Shown piece after piece: positions 24,764-31,045 of a stretch of DNA of 64,000 nucleotides. Below the pieces are notes generated by a model that made no database searches, was not told the origin of the DNA, and saw nothing but the letters and a program-made list of their open reading frames with translations. The stretch is from Actinomycetota bacterium (lineage in GTDB: Bacteria > Actinomycetota > Geothermincolia > Geothermincolales > RBG-13-55-18). The stretch spans positions 145,095 to 209,094 of the forward strand of contig JASEFK010000003.1 of NCBI GenBank assembly GCA_030019255.1. Reading direction: 5' to 3'. Position 1 is the first letter of the stretch, and the number at the start of each line of letters is the position of its first letter. A program made the position numbers and the translations under genes.

Positions 24764-25034
24764 TTCGCCGCTCCCCCCCGGGGATGTCTCTAATAAACTC
24801 ATTGCCGCACCGGGCGTCGGGAGCCCAGGCCGTATCCTCGCTAAATACGTTCCATTTCCCTTTCGCCACTTTCCTTCCATGCTCTCGTTTTCGGGAAAGC
24901 CCATGGTCCGTTTAGTGGTGAACAGCCGGGCCCGCGCTCGAGCCTTTCCGGTGCACCCCGGTCAGCTCTTAAGAATATGCCGCCGCGGAACGATAAAAGA
25001 TACGTTACCGGGCGGTTATCAACCTGGACGAGGG

Positions 25035-26120
25035 ATGATCATGGCTGCAAAATGTCCTTCCTGCGGAGTTCCCCGCATCATCTCCCGAACGCACAGGTGG
25101 GAAAACGGATGCATTGTGAACAGGGCCGACGGCAGTGCCAACTTCAGCATCTACGAGGCCTCCTTCCACAATGGCGTCTTCGAGGAGCTGGAACGCCGCC
25201 TGGGTTCCACCATAAACCGCATGGTGTACATCGCCGGAAGAATTGCCGCCGCGGAGATCGCCAGGAATCTCTTCACCGCCAAACCGGCCGCCCAGAGGCT
25301 CATCTTCAGGACTCCCCTCTATCGCCTGACCCAGAAATGTCTCCTACTCTTCACTCGCTCCATCGGCATGGGCCGCATCGAGCTGCTGACCCACCGGCGG
25401 GGAAAGGAGGGGGCGGTAAGGGTGACCGATCCCTTCCATCTGGCCCACTGCACTGCGGTCATCCTGGGAGGACTGGACGTGATGTACGGATTCCCGGTAT
25501 CCTTTACCGCCCGGGTGGAAGGTGAAAGTTACATAGGTGAGCTCATTCCCGGAAAGAGGGATTCCCTGGGCAGTGACGAAGCGTACCGCCGGTTGACCTC
25601 GGAGAAACTCCTTCCCTCACCATTGCGGGAGAAGATGTCGTTCTCCCCCTGCCGGCGTTGTGGGGCCCCCTCCGAACTGGGGCAATCCTTTTGTTTCGAT
25701 CTCGAAAGCGGTGTCATCACAGAGAGGGAAACCGGCGACCGCCACATCTTCTATGGTCACCAGTCACTCCATGCCATATTGCGGGAATTCGAGCTCGAGC
25801 TGGGCCCTGAGGTAAGGGACCTCTTCGTGAAGGCGGAAAAGGACAGCTTTTCCGCCAAGCTGGCAGGAAATACGGATTACGATCTAGCTTGGAGAATAGA
25901 AACCCTCCGCCCCTACCTGGCCCTGCGGGGGATGGGTTTCCTGTCCCATCTCGAGGATGGCAGGGACGGAGCAAGCCTTGAGGTCTTAAACGCCTTCGTG
26001 CCCACGGTGGTGGTGGGGCGGGTGGCGGCCCTTTGGGAAAAACACAGGGGGAAGCCAGCAAGGTACGCATACAGGACGAAAGGGAGCACCCTATTGCTGC
26101 GCATCACCCCCACGACTTGA
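25035..26120 (+). CDS. Zinc-knuckle protein with internal duplication, unknown function
   Basis: A protein of about 361 residues built of two related halves. Half one opens CPSCGVPRIISRTHRWENGC; half two (about residue 205 on) opens CRRCGAPSELGQSFCFDLES. In each, a CxxCGxP knuckle is followed by GxIxxR-type strands, an aromatic residue, a helix with ELE..LG and then a long helix with alanines. The two knuckles should bind zinc or another metal. No enzyme motif is visible. The start is taken as ATG 25035 (or 25041), since the upstream extension is Arg-rich and unrelated. It stands alone beside tRNA-Val in DNA of lower GC. Confidence 0.7.
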   Translation: MIMAAKCPSCGVPRIISRTHRWENGCIVNRADGSANFSIYEASFHNGVFEELERRLGSTINRMVYIAGRIAAAEIARNLFTAKPAAQRLIFRTPLYRLTQKCLLLFTRSIGMGRIELLTHRRGKEGAVRVTDPFHLAHCTAVILGGLDVMYGFPVSFTARVEGESYIGELIPGKRDSLGSDEAYRRLTSEKLLPSPLREKMSFSPCRRCGAPSELGQSFCFDLESGVITERETGDRHIFYGHQSLHAILREFELELGPEVRDLFVKAEKDSFSAKLAGNTDYDLAWRIETLRPYLALRGMGFLSHLEDGRDGASLEVLNAFVPTVVVGRVAALWEKHRGKPARYAYRTKGSTLLLRITPTT

Positions 26121-26325: not shown

Positions 26326-27771
26326 TTAGTCGGGATGGAGGAGGGGGAGGAGTTCCGCGGCCTCGTCCAGCCAGGCGCCCTCCAAGCAGGAAGCTGCGTT
26401 GCGGTTCAGCTCCCGGGGAGAGGAAAAGGCCGCGTGGACGACGCGACCCCTCTCCAGGACCAGATGACAACAGGTCTCTCCCTCCGGTCCCTCGCAGCGC
26501 CCGAACCCCCGGCCGCTCCCATGCCGTCCCCGAGGTGCCTCCCAGGGGCCCTCAAGGGGATGCTGAAGCAGCGCTTCGATGATGGCCAGGGAATCCCCCA
26601 CCTCCCCCGCTCTTACCTCCACCATTCGCCGCAGCGTTCCCTTCTTCCCCGCCGTCACGCGAGGAGACCAGCCGGGAGGCATGGAGAACGCCGGATCCTC
26701 CGCCCGTGCGTCCCATCCGCTTCCCAGGGCCCTGGCCAGGGGACCCACCCAGGCCTCCCATCCTTTCCAGGGTCCGCCGCACGCCGCCGTACCCGTCCCG
26801 CGTTCCCCGCTCCTCCCCTCCCGCGGAAGCCGGGCCAGGCGTCTCTCCGCCCAGCGGGGAGGGGAAAGAGCCGCCAGGCGCCGGTATAACCCCGCCCATT
26901 GCCGGCCCATATCTTCCATATCCTTCCATAATTCGCGGACTACCCTTTCCGCCACCCCGTTCCGCACCCCTCCGGGAACCAGCGCCTCCGCTATTCCCCT
27001 CCCGCCGGTCACCGTCCTTTCCAGCTCCGCGATCCCTTCACCCCAGCGCTTTAACCTTCGGGAGAGTCGAAACCGCCCGGAGAGCGCCGCCGCCGCGAAG
27101 AGCCAGGAACAGTGATATCGCATCCGCAGTAGCTCCAGCAGGACCGCGCGCACCGCCCGTGCGGAAGGAGGGACTGCGCATCCACGACCCTCCTCCAAGG
27201 CCAGAAGGAAAGAAAGAAGGAGGGGCAAATCCCCGCCCAGCGCTTCCCGTGCCCGTTCCGTCTCGCTCCCCGCCTTTCCTCCCCGGAGGCGCAGTGAGGG
27301 AGCCATGCGCAGGCACTCGATCACCCGAAGCACGCGCCCTCCCGCCGTCTCCACCAGCAGCTCCCCTCCCGCGTAGGGGAGGCAGCTCCTGGCGGGCTCC
27401 TCCCTTTCGCCGCGGCTTTTCCCCACACCCGGTACGCCTTCGCGGCTCGCCCGCCGAATGCTCCCCTCGCAGCCGACCGCCCCGTAGAGCAGCTCCAACC
27501 ACCGGGCAGCGGAGGGGAAAAAGGAGGACGCCTTCTCCACCAGCCCTCCCCCTTCCCGTGAGAGCAGGTGAAGGGTCTTCCCCTCCCGGGGATCGAAGAA
27601 ATGCAGGGATTCCCGTCCCACGGGGTCCACGTCCGCCATGAGCAATCGGAGACCCCGCTCGGCCAGGAAACGCAGCCTGGCCTCCCTCTCGCCGCCCGCT
27701 TCCGTCAGCCATACCCCGCGGGAAATGCCCTCTTTCAAGATTACCTCCGGGAAAAACCCGCTCCCAACCAT
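26326..27771 (-). CDS. Divergent NuoD/EchE-like large-subunit homologue lacking Ni ligands
   Basis: The 481-residue soluble protein has its strongest hints in the second half: RMRYHCSWLFAAAAL, then GRGIAEALVPGGVRNGV (compare the GxR...PGGV loop of NuoD and hydrogenase large subunits). Later come VRAGEVGDSLAIIEAL and EGPEGETCCHLVLERGRV, ending near LNRNAASCLEGAWLDEAAELL (like the C-terminal segment where the family places substrate and metal sites). The paired CxxC motifs that hold NiFe are absent, so it cannot be a hydrogenase. It is last in a leftward run after NuoH-like and antiporter-like genes. Divergence is high, so the call rests on motif order and context. Confidence 0.55.
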   Translation of the reverse strand: MVGSGFFPEVILKEGISRGVWLTEAGGEREARLRFLAERGLRLLMADVDPVGRESLHFFDPREGKTLHLLSREGGGLVEKASSFFPSAARWLELLYGAVGCEGSIRRASREGVPGVGKSRGEREEPARSCLPYAGGELLVETAGGRVLRVIECLRMAPSLRLRGGKAGSETERAREALGGDLPLLLSFLLALEEGRGCAVPPSARAVRAVLLELLRMRYHCSWLFAAAALSGRFRLSRRLKRWGEGIAELERTVTGGRGIAEALVPGGVRNGVAERVVRELWKDMEDMGRQWAGLYRRLAALSPPRWAERRLARLPREGRSGERGTGTAACGGPWKGWEAWVGPLARALGSGWDARAEDPAFSMPPGWSPRVTAGKKGTLRRMVEVRAGEVGDSLAIIEALLQHPLEGPWEAPRGRHGSGRGFGRCEGPEGETCCHLVLERGRVVHAAFSSPRELNRNAASCLEGAWLDEAAELLPLLHPD

Positions 27772-27879
27772 TTCCGCTCCCGCTCCAGCAACCGCAAAGC
27801 ACGGGACGGATTCCCGCCGGGGGAAGGGCCCTCCGCAGGATCGCCGAAGGCCGTTACCGCGTTGCGAGCGTTCCCGCCT

Positions 27880-29505
27880 TCAGCGCAAAAGGACAAGGGT
27901 CATCGCCCCCCACCAGCCCAGGAACATCGCCACTTCCGCTGTCACCGCCGCCAGCACCCAAACCCTCCCCCGACACCGGAAAGGATAAGGATAAGGCATG
28001 AAGCCCACCGGCGTCGCGGTGAGGGCCTTAGATCCTCGCTCCCCGTCGGGCATCCCGGTCGTTCCCCGCACCCGCGTCCCCCAGAGGAGTCCCAGCCCCG
28101 CCAGCACCAGTATGGAAGCCCAGGCAAGCGAACCCCAGGAGGAAAAGGGCACCTCCATGGGCAGGCCGTACTCCCGCATGAAGAGGTCCACCACCCGCCC
28201 CGGGTAGACCCCCACCAGGACAAGAACGGCAAGGAGCGGCAAAGAAACCGCCGCGGCAACCCAGGCCGGCGCGCCGTCCGCTTCACCGCCGGGCGCGAGG
28301 AGGGTCACCGTACCGCCCACCAGAAAAGCCAGGACCACGACCGGCCAGCCCAGGAAGAACACCGCCCCACTTCCGCCCGCATGACCCTCCACCAGGGAGC
28401 TCCCCGCCATCCACAGGGAACCGAAGCCGGCCAAGGGGGGAATCCCCAGGAGCGCGGCGCCGCCGGCCACCCCCGCCCACCGCCGCCACCCTCCTCCCTC
28501 CGAGGCCTCCAGCAGCAGGAGGGCGGGAATCCCCGAAAGTAACACCAGCCTGGCCGCCGCCGCGCCGCCCTGCCCTCCGCCGGAGAGGGAGAGGGCGAAG
28601 GCGCCCCCCAGGCAGGCCGCCACCCATCCCCGCACTCCTCCCCGGTTCGCGGAACGCAAAAGGGACAGGGCCGAGGAGGCCAGTACGGCGGAACCCACGC
28701 CCAGCATCACCCACTGCCATTCCCTGCCCGGGGAGAAGACCACCCGGACGGCCAGGAAGAGAAGGTACCCCCCGAGGACGGGGTTTACCACCTGGAGGTA
28801 GGGCAGCCGGTATGCCCTCCCCCGCCCGGAGAGAAAGGCAGCGCAGGCGTTGAGGGGAAAGACCCCCAGGCGCAGCAGGGCGGCGGCCAGCATGAGGACG
28901 AAGGCGGGAAGACAATCAACCTCCGCGGCGGGAAAGGAGGAGAGAAGTAGTCCCCGGGAGAGGCCCTTGAGGGCCATGAGCAGGACGGACAGGGCCAGGC
29001 AGAGGTCCGAGGCCAGGAAGGGGAAGAGCGCGGCCCAGCTTCGCGACCGTTCCCTCCCCGCCCGTTCGACCAGGAGGGCGGTGGCCGCCGCACACCAGGT
29101 AGCCAGGGCGCACCCGGCGGATAGGAGGATGAGATGACCGGAGAGCGCGGCGGTCATGGCCCCGGCTAGGGAGAGGTGGCCGAGGGCGCTGAGAACCCGC
29201 CGCTTCCGGCCCTCCGCCCCCTCCCTTCCGGCGAGAAGGAGCAGGGAAAGGGGCCCGGCCACCGCCAAAAGGACCAGGAAGACAAGGTTTACGGCCGTAA
29301 GGGTCCACCACCCCCAGCGGAAAGGTCCGGGGCCGACGTGCCTCTCCCACCCCCGGTAAGCCAACACGAGGAGCGTGGAGGCGGACAGGAACGACCATAT
29401 GGATGGAACATATTTCCATCTGCTCTCCCCGGCGGGCACCACGCTCATCAGGGCCGCCACCAGAGCAGCCGCAGGCATGAAGGGAAGGAGGTAAACGGCC
29501 TTCAT
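27880..29505 (-). CDS. Antiporter-like membrane subunit (NuoL/M/N, HyfB/MrpD type)
   Basis: A hydrophobic protein of 541 residues with about 14 membrane helices, ending in a membrane helix. The arrangement resembles proton-conducting subunits of complex I, Mrp and formate hydrogenlyases. The central helices include LMLAAALLRLGVFPLNACAA, matching the conserved KxAxxPLHxWLP-type region, but the key Lys/His residues appear replaced, and GIPPLAGFGSLWM matches the GIPPxxGFxxK motif without the Lys. Proton pumping may therefore be altered or lost. It lies between the NuoH-like and NuoD-like genes. Confidence 0.7.
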   Translation of the reverse strand: MKAVYLLPFMPAAALVAALMSVVPAGESRWKYVPSIWSFLSASTLLVLAYRGWERHVGPGPFRWGWWTLTAVNLVFLVLLAVAGPLSLLLLAGREGAEGRKRRVLSALGHLSLAGAMTAALSGHLILLSAGCALATWCAAATALLVERAGRERSRSWAALFPFLASDLCLALSVLLMALKGLSRGLLLSSFPAAEVDCLPAFVLMLAAALLRLGVFPLNACAAFLSGRGRAYRLPYLQVVNPVLGGYLLFLAVRVVFSPGREWQWVMLGVGSAVLASSALSLLRSANRGGVRGWVAACLGGAFALSLSGGGQGGAAAARLVLLSGIPALLLLEASEGGGWRRWAGVAGGAALLGIPPLAGFGSLWMAGSSLVEGHAGGSGAVFFLGWPVVVLAFLVGGTVTLLAPGGEADGAPAWVAAAVSLPLLAVLVLVGVYPGRVVDLFMREYGLPMEVPFSSWGSLAWASILVLAGLGLLWGTRVRGTTGMPDGERGSKALTATPVGFMPYPYPFRCRGRVWVLAAVTAEVAMFLGWWGAMTLVLLR

Positions 29506-29784
29506 CTTCCCGAGACCACCCCCTTTCCCCCAACTGGTGGGTTACCCCCCAGTCGTGTCAGGACGTTCTTCTTCGCCATCCCCGCCACCCCATTCCGCGC
29601 CGTGATGCCCTCCGAGGGCCGATCTTAGAACCGCGACCACCATCCTCCGCGACGACGCCCTGGTCACGGCCCGAAGGCGGCCATGGACCCCCGGACCCGC
29701 GTTTCCGTCCCCGGGTCGTGCCGCGGCGCGTAAGCCGGCCCCGGACGCGTTCCCGGAACCCGGAAACCCCCTTCGGCCCTTTTC

Positions 29785-30693
29785 TCAACCCAGGGCGGAG
29801 GCGCCCACCATGAGGGCCAGGGAAAGGAGGGCGGGGACCGCCGCCCACCATTGCGACTTTCTCCTCCCCACCCGGCCCCAGCGGGAGAAACCGGCGCGCA
29901 GAAGGATGCTCAGCAGGAGCCATCCCAGCGTGGCCGGCAGCCAGAACGTGTATCCGCCGTTTCCCTCCCCAGGGTACCCCAGGAAGAGGACCGGGAAAAC
30001 GGCCACCAGAAAGCCCCGTTCCGCGGCCCGCAGGCAGCGGGCCGTCAAGCCCTCGTGTCCTCCGCCCGGAAGGATAAGCCCGTTCTCCCATCCGGGATCA
30101 CCCAGGACCAGTAGAACGGCGGAGAAGGCACCGGCGCCCAGGGCCGCGGCCACGGCGAGGCGGCCCGGTCCTTCCCAGAGGGCCAGGGAGGCGAAGAGGT
30201 GCTCGCCCTGGAAGGAGCGCAGGGAGATGTCCGGCCCTCCAGGGTAACGGAGGGAGGCAGCGGCGAGCAGGAACAGGAAGGTGGTGGCGCGCAGAAACGC
30301 GGTGCGGAAGGCAAGGGGTAGAAAGGCCTCCCCCCTCCAGGTTCCGGCTTCGCGCAGCGCGGCCAGGGGCAGCGCCTCGGCGGAGGCGAAAAGGAGGGCC
30401 AGGACCAGGAGGTTCCCCCTCGCCCCGATCAGCGACAACACGCCCAGGCCGAGGGCCACCAGGGAGGTGGAGAGGAAGAAGCCGGCCTGGGGAGACCACG
30501 TCCACCCGCCTTCCTGTCCCTCCAAGCCTACTCCGCCCCCGTCAGCGGGTCCTCCGAGGATGAGCTCCGCGGCCTTCCGGTCCAGGAAGAGGAGCAGGCT
30601 CCCTCCGGCCAGAAGGGTGCCCAGGCCCGGAAAGAACAGCAACCTCAGGACGTCCAGGACCGTCCGCATGACCACCATCCGCTCTATCCGCAT
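29785..30693 (-). CDS. NuoH/EchB-like membrane subunit
   Basis: A hydrophobic protein of about 302 residues with about eight helices. The N-terminus FFPGLGTLLAGGSLLLFLDR-K resembles the NuoH/HyfC opening in which a hydrophobic helix ends in (E/D)RK. Later come an acidic loop near GDPGWENGLILPGGGHEG and a helix with AAERGFLVAVFPVLFLG, comparable to the E-containing loop and following helix of NuoH. Similarity is weak and partly by context. ATG 30693 is chosen; 30678, 30669 and an upstream 30774 are alternatives. A 279-bp gap without a gene separates it from the next subunit. Confidence 0.5.
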   Translation of the reverse strand: MRIERMVVMRTVLDVLRLLFFPGLGTLLAGGSLLLFLDRKAAELILGGPADGGGVGLEGQEGGWTWSPQAGFFLSTSLVALGLGVLSLIGARGNLLVLALLFASAEALPLAALREAGTWRGEAFLPLAFRTAFLRATTFLFLLAAASLRYPGGPDISLRSFQGEHLFASLALWEGPGRLAVAAALGAGAFSAVLLVLGDPGWENGLILPGGGHEGLTARCLRAAERGFLVAVFPVLFLGYPGEGNGGYTFWLPATLGWLLLSILLRAGFSRWGRVGRRKSQWWAAVPALLSLALMVGASALG

Positions 30694-30830
30694 TGAGGCT
30701 CGGCTACGCCCTCGTCTACCCCCGCAAAAACGGGGCGCGATTCCGGCGCGGCCAGGGTTTTCCCGGAGCCTCATCCCGGCCTCACCCGCGTCGCGCCCCG
30801 GTGCGGCCTAATTACGACCTCGCCTCCCGG

Positions 30831-31045
30831 CAGCCGGACGGGGCTGGACCACGCCCAGTGGCCGTCATCCTGCTCCAACCGCAGACGCGGGGAGGCCTAG
30901 CGCATACCCGAACTCCGGGTCCTGCCTCGATACAACCCACGCCCCTCCCACCTGACGCCTCAGCTCAAGCCGTGGCGCCGCCATTCCCCAGCAGCCAGAT
31001 GGGGCTGGACCACGCCCAGTGGCCGTCATCTTGCTCCACCCGCAG
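30831..31045. repeat. 54-bp duplication of the 3' end of the PHP gene
   Basis: Segment 30992-31045, inside the 3' end of the leftward PHP gene, recurs at 30831-30884 beyond its stop with 4 mismatches in 54. Read leftwards, the copy still encodes LRLEQDDGHWAWSSPVRL against LRVEQDDGHWAWSSPIWL in the gene. The DNA between the copies is unrelated. It looks like the remnant of a second gene copy or a partial duplication. Confidence 0.85.

Follow-up and report, generated by a model that had tools for sequence, protein, structure and literature searches.

A three-gene relative of formate hydrogenlyase in uncultured Actinomycetota that may form a membrane complex without redox chemistry

We describe three adjacent genes, H, L and D, encoding relatives of the HycD, HycC and HycE subunits of formate hydrogenlyase, and we see about an even chance that their products form a complex-I-superfamily assembly in the membrane which is without redox chemistry and which is selected for a non-redox use. 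The trio lies intact on the minus strand at 30693-26326 of the window (the whole 64,000-nucleotide stretch of DNA that was analysed), and the three intact, leftward-read genes that a sequence-only reading of this DNA had placed at 26326-30693 were located correctly. The features of the trio, and the location of a related four-gene module (H-B-L-D) carried by f4, another family of this class, are listed in Table 1.

Table 1. Features of the H-L-D trio in the window and location of the cousin module
Feature	Coordinates	Strand	Basis or remark
H, NuoH/HycD-like membrane subunit, 302 aa	29785..30693	-	AlphaFold model
L, antiporter-like subunit (NuoL/M/N, HycC type), 541 aa	27880..29505	-	profile link, tree
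D, large subunit of HycE type, 481 aa, fusion of NuoC-like and NuoD-like domains	26326..27771	-	PF00346, profile, model
H-L spacer, position of NuoB in cousin module; no NuoB remnant found	29506..29784	-	
Codon of L Arg212, invariant, replaces TM7 Lys	28870..28872	-	
TM12-type motif GIPPLAGFGSLW, L residues 354-365; antiporter Lys/Glu replaced by Leu	28411..28446	-	
Putative N-terminal NuoC-like domain, roughly D residues 20-100	27472..27714	-	full-length fold alignment to HycE, NuoCD; boundaries set by eye, region poorly aligned by MAFFT
NuoD-like core, roughly D residues 166-412	26536..27276	-	Pfam, profile
Invariant Cys434-Cys435-His436 of D, within GFGRxEGPxGExCCH	26464..26472	-	
H-B-L-D module of family f4	L050 9200-13341; L074 8952-13102		also L106-L110

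Results

Identity of the three proteins

D scored 28.3 bits against the Pfam 49-kDa family PF00346 (gathering score 24), and the profile of its family retrieved HycE (2.8e-21), MbhL (8.7e-21) and MbsL (1.1e-20) from the PDB. The AlphaFold model of D is of moderate quality (pLDDT 74.6, pTM 0.79) and, when used in a fold search of the PDB, found HycE first and NuoCD fusions next; because these alignments span the whole length of the model, they indicate that the N-terminal part of D is NuoC-like. H and L by themselves matched no Pfam family, and PDB sequence searches with their profiles directly returned nothing useful. The model of H (pLDDT 81.3, pTM 0.79) found HycD at the top of a PDB fold search, with NuoH-type proteins making up all of the best 50 matches at modest TM-scores of about 0.6, and the assignment of H thus leans on its predicted structure. 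For L, the only match in NCBIfam was a weak one to the NuoM model (E 0.002); by profile it is linked to relatives for which PF00361 (Proton_antipo_M) does give a match, and a tree places the L proteins of the trio and of the f4 module in one clade (100/100), both branches being long. It is this profile link and the tree that point to L as an antiporter-type subunit. The NuoD-like, NuoH-like and NuoL/M/N-like identities proposed from the sequence alone are thereby borne out, and the structure prediction suggested with them yielded a fold match for both D and H.

Distribution and selection

The trio was found in nine genomes from four genera of one family of uncultured Actinomycetota near 'Candidatus Solincola', all family genomes being draft MAGs. 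Among 59 related genomes searched, D homologues were found in this same family, at 37-69% identity. The H profile matched in nine family genomes and, when 297 genomes from the phylum were covered, gave nothing convincing outside the family. Scanning 84,980 species genomes for two short patterns, an approach that reaches only relatives sharing both, returned only the trio family and Rubrobacter, and the latter matches were rejected because they are ordinary complex I operons. Wherever the locus was assembled, the order and place of the trio were constant, with no further Nuo gene; in one of the nine genomes (G012) the locus is split across two contigs. The neighbours are genes for a DUF3604 protein, Pol IV, a DUF166 protein, a response regulator and an NrdD-like protein, not every one of which is kept in each genome. 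Conservation in relatives, one of the checks that the sequence-only reading had put forward, therefore holds across four genera.

Further genes near the locus were recorded. At 24879-26120 of the window lies a gene whose product has a Cys-rich, zinc-ribbon-like N terminus together with an apparent internal repeat. This gene adjoins the trio site in several genera, and its product matches no Pfam family above cut-off. The interval at 30694-30964 does not hold the divergent HhH-GPD DNA glycosylase gene that other genera have between H and the DUF3604 gene. Genus g4 has a flavodoxin-domain gene downstream of D on the same strand (L040 7470-7970, L041 8388-8873, L044 6198-6683), which is absent beside the trio of the window. 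Promoter and terminator scans at the locus were uninformative, and a literature search of partial coverage found no paper on the complex of this lineage or on NuoB-less members.

In genera g3 and g5, the neighbours of the trio are present and the trio is absent without remnants, which implies that it is dispensable. An apparent loss in G001 was rejected, as an assembly gap falls exactly at the site, and the absence from G003 is equally uninformative because both tested flanking genes are missing there.

Between congeners, dN/dS of the trio was 0.25-0.40 in genus g1, 0.22-0.27 in g6 and 0.26-0.28 in g4, and no upper 95% bound exceeded 0.54. The trio is thus not freely decaying, and this second proposed check, too, came out in favour of intact genes. 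Neighbouring genes gave 0.03-0.21, and the trio lies above most of them, chiefly in the genus to which the window belongs. Constraint is tightest in the C-terminal part of D (0.12-0.15), a value made less certain by high dS in that part. The invariant residues of D cluster at 31-60 and 421-450, with a looser NuoD core between them; they do not cluster in the NuoD helical core, the region that holds the active site in hydrogenases, and constraint on D may have moved away from what was the active site and onto other surfaces.

We asked how these data sit with the view that the trio is a slowly decaying relic of a hydrogenase or of an energy-converting-hydrogenase-related (Ehr) complex, with constraint weakening and the genes being lost genus by genus. 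Absence from g3 and g5, evolution faster than that of most neighbours and the long branch on which the window's genus sits in both trees, that of D and that of L, are what such a relic would show, but every complete copy seen in the four genera has long open frames, dN/dS is clearly below 1 and one motif is conserved above the rest, and we consider the relic unlikely.

Residues lost and kept

HycE served as the numbering ruler for D, with residue roles taken from PMC9474812. No CxxC is present in D in any of the eight full-length members, which extends to the family what had been seen for the large subunit of the window. At the equivalent of HycE Cys241 there are varied residues, and at that of Cys244, the second L1 cysteine, Asp or Glu in all eight. 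Canopy Arg478 is lost in all members, mostly to Glu or Asp. The Asp529-Pro-Cys-x-x-Cys end, which comprises canopy Asp529 and the second nickel-ligand pair (the L2 CxxC), is absent in all members because the D proteins end before that point. The equivalents of His284 and Arg395 are invariant and that of Glu437 is Glu in seven of eight members and Asp in the remaining one, indicating that the fold interior continues to be maintained. In its C-terminal region, D carries an invariant GFGR-EGP-GE-CCH motif, and the Cys-Cys-His, judged from sequence, could bind metal. The description of the module as being without metal-binding residues consequently holds for the known ligands only.

In H, no HycD E-channel acid is retained family-wide, the E-channel loop (PFDxxEAExE) is lost, and not one acidic residue is invariant across the family. 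In L, the TM5 Glu is lost and the TM12 Lys/Glu is Leu in all members, and the TM7 Lys is replaced by Arg in every L protein of trio and cousin alike (register set by eye around a PLH motif), so that the antiporter-like protein was rightly said to lack the usual Lys. Because HycC itself is without the TM7 Lys (PMC9474812), the Lys-to-Arg change in L alone is not decisive. With the residues of the proton path lost as well, the trio appears to reuse the scaffold rather than the known proton channel.

A less stripped cousin module

Seven genomes of family f4 carry the H-B-L-D module, flanked by transpeptidase-like and adenine-deaminase-like genes (named by eye). In two members tested, all four proteins scored above the Pfam cut-offs (PF00146, PF01058, PF00361 and PF00346). 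The f4 NuoB retains its Fe-S cysteines (CxxC, GDC and GCP). The f4 D has CAxS at L1, with Cys kept in the first position and Ser in the second, and it has a CxxC that lies at its C terminus or close to it; it thus keeps three of the four nickel cysteines. The f4 L mostly keeps the TM5 Glu (five of seven) and has the TM12 Lys in six of seven. Common descent of the trio and the f4 module is supported by L and by gene order; in the D tree, a joint clade was neither shown nor rejected (p-AU 0.20). The f4 module, a minimal NuoB-containing complex of hydrogenase-like type for which we found no published description, is probably a less stripped cousin of the trio.

Absence of NuoB and other redox subunits

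No NuoB, ferredoxin subunit or other Nuo gene is present at the trio loci of related genomes, in agreement with what had been said of the window. The NuoB profile found no match in any family member searched (ten-odd genomes, several more than 95% complete), and no NuoB remnant was found in the spacers, including the H-L spacer. Complex I was rejected as a candidate in the window's own genome, where there is no PF00146 match, D is the sole PF00346 match and the PF00361 matches belong to an Mrp operon.

The same genome encodes two PF01058 proteins, which raises the question of whether the trio is still a redox enzyme that receives electrons from a small subunit encoded elsewhere or through a new cofactor at the Cys-Cys-His of D. 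The invariance of that motif, the presence in every member of an acidic residue at one of the nickel-ligand positions, and the retained His284 and Arg395 equivalents would accord with such an enzyme. The only two PF01058 proteins are, however, hydrogenase small subunits, each beside its own hydrogenase large subunit, the NuoB-type profile is unmatched in the family, and D has lost the canopy residues and ends before the second nickel-ligand pair; we regard a redox role as improbable. That a NuoB-like partner has diverged beyond detection or fallen into assembly gaps, as high divergence of the trio subunits and the draft state of the MAGs would allow, is very unlikely given the ten-odd genomes without a match, several of them nearly complete, and the empty H-L spacer, where the cousin has NuoB.

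Two other loci of this genome were noted. One (L048 8859-10169, contig C1) encodes a NiFe-hydrogenase-type large subunit with RICGPD as its first motif, in which the second L1 cysteine is Asp and CIPC is kept at the end. The other (L047 7206-12913, contig C4) carries genes for the small and the large subunit of a Group-1-type hydrogenase and, after them, RnfC/RnfD-like genes (by eye).

Discussion

Among the closest known systems is E. coli formate hydrogenlyase (HycC/HycD/HycE; 7z0s/7z0t; PMC9474812), which like the trio has one HycD-type and one antiporter-type membrane subunit and a NuoC-NuoD fusion as large subunit, and which supplies the best fold match of D and H. Unlike it, the trio is without HycG, HycF, HycB and formate dehydrogenase and without the NiFe ligands, canopy or E-channel residues. 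Measured against group 4 [NiFe] hydrogenases (Ech/Hyc/Mbh), the trio has the HycD/NuoH-type anchor and lacks the two CxxC pairs and the [4Fe-4S] small subunit (HycG/EchC/NuoB). MBS and MBH of Pyrococcus furiosus (6u8y, 6cfw) are related in that the D profile retrieves MbsL and MbhL (about 1e-20) and the H model matches the NuoH-type chain 6u8y_M of MBS, but they are built from many subunits, among them one of NuoB type (6u8y_J, 6cfw_J). The trio lacks the NuoA-N set, the electron input module and the NuoB N2 cluster of respiratory complex I. Ehr complexes, for which a coupling between redox reactions and charge transport has been proposed, resemble the trio in having a group-4-like large subunit without Ni/Fe ligands plus antiporter-like subunits (PMC6349859). 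The trio differs from them in being without an Fe-S small subunit and in its degenerate proton path. Ehr complexes include a NuoB-type Fe-S subunit as the electron path.

The sequence-only reading had offered two options, a decayed hydrogenase or a new complex reusing the proton-channel scaffold without redox chemistry, and had held the intact ORFs against simple decay. Conservation over four genera, gene order, dN/dS and the new invariant motif uphold that argument and favour the non-redox complex over simple decay, with the amendment that the known proton path has lost its residues as well. The NuoB-bearing cousin module supports descent from a hydrogenase-like complex, and the trio would most likely have arisen from an Ehr/group-4-type complex that lost NuoB. 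In the non-redox complex, the HycE-like D would still dock on the H-L pair from the cytoplasm, a docking predicted to proceed without NuoB, and would serve as the cytoplasmic control or docking part, with its N-terminal domain and its C-terminal GFGR-EGP-GE-CCH region as the presumed working surfaces. The assembly would act without electron transfer, and its most likely role is predicted to be that of a scaffold or of a regulated path through the membrane, gated by a ligand or by a protein. Our more specific and tentative proposal is that the HycE-like subunit gates or controls a two-subunit HycC/HycD-type path for an ion or solute with zero electron transfer.

It has long been asked how complex I uses electron transfer to drive the movement of ions. 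The trio keeps a peripheral subunit and a membrane arm, and a natural version that is under selection yet has no NuoB, active site or E-channel would reveal what such a scaffold is capable of when redox chemistry is absent. The class also has a partly stripped four-subunit version, so that the order of loss can be compared.
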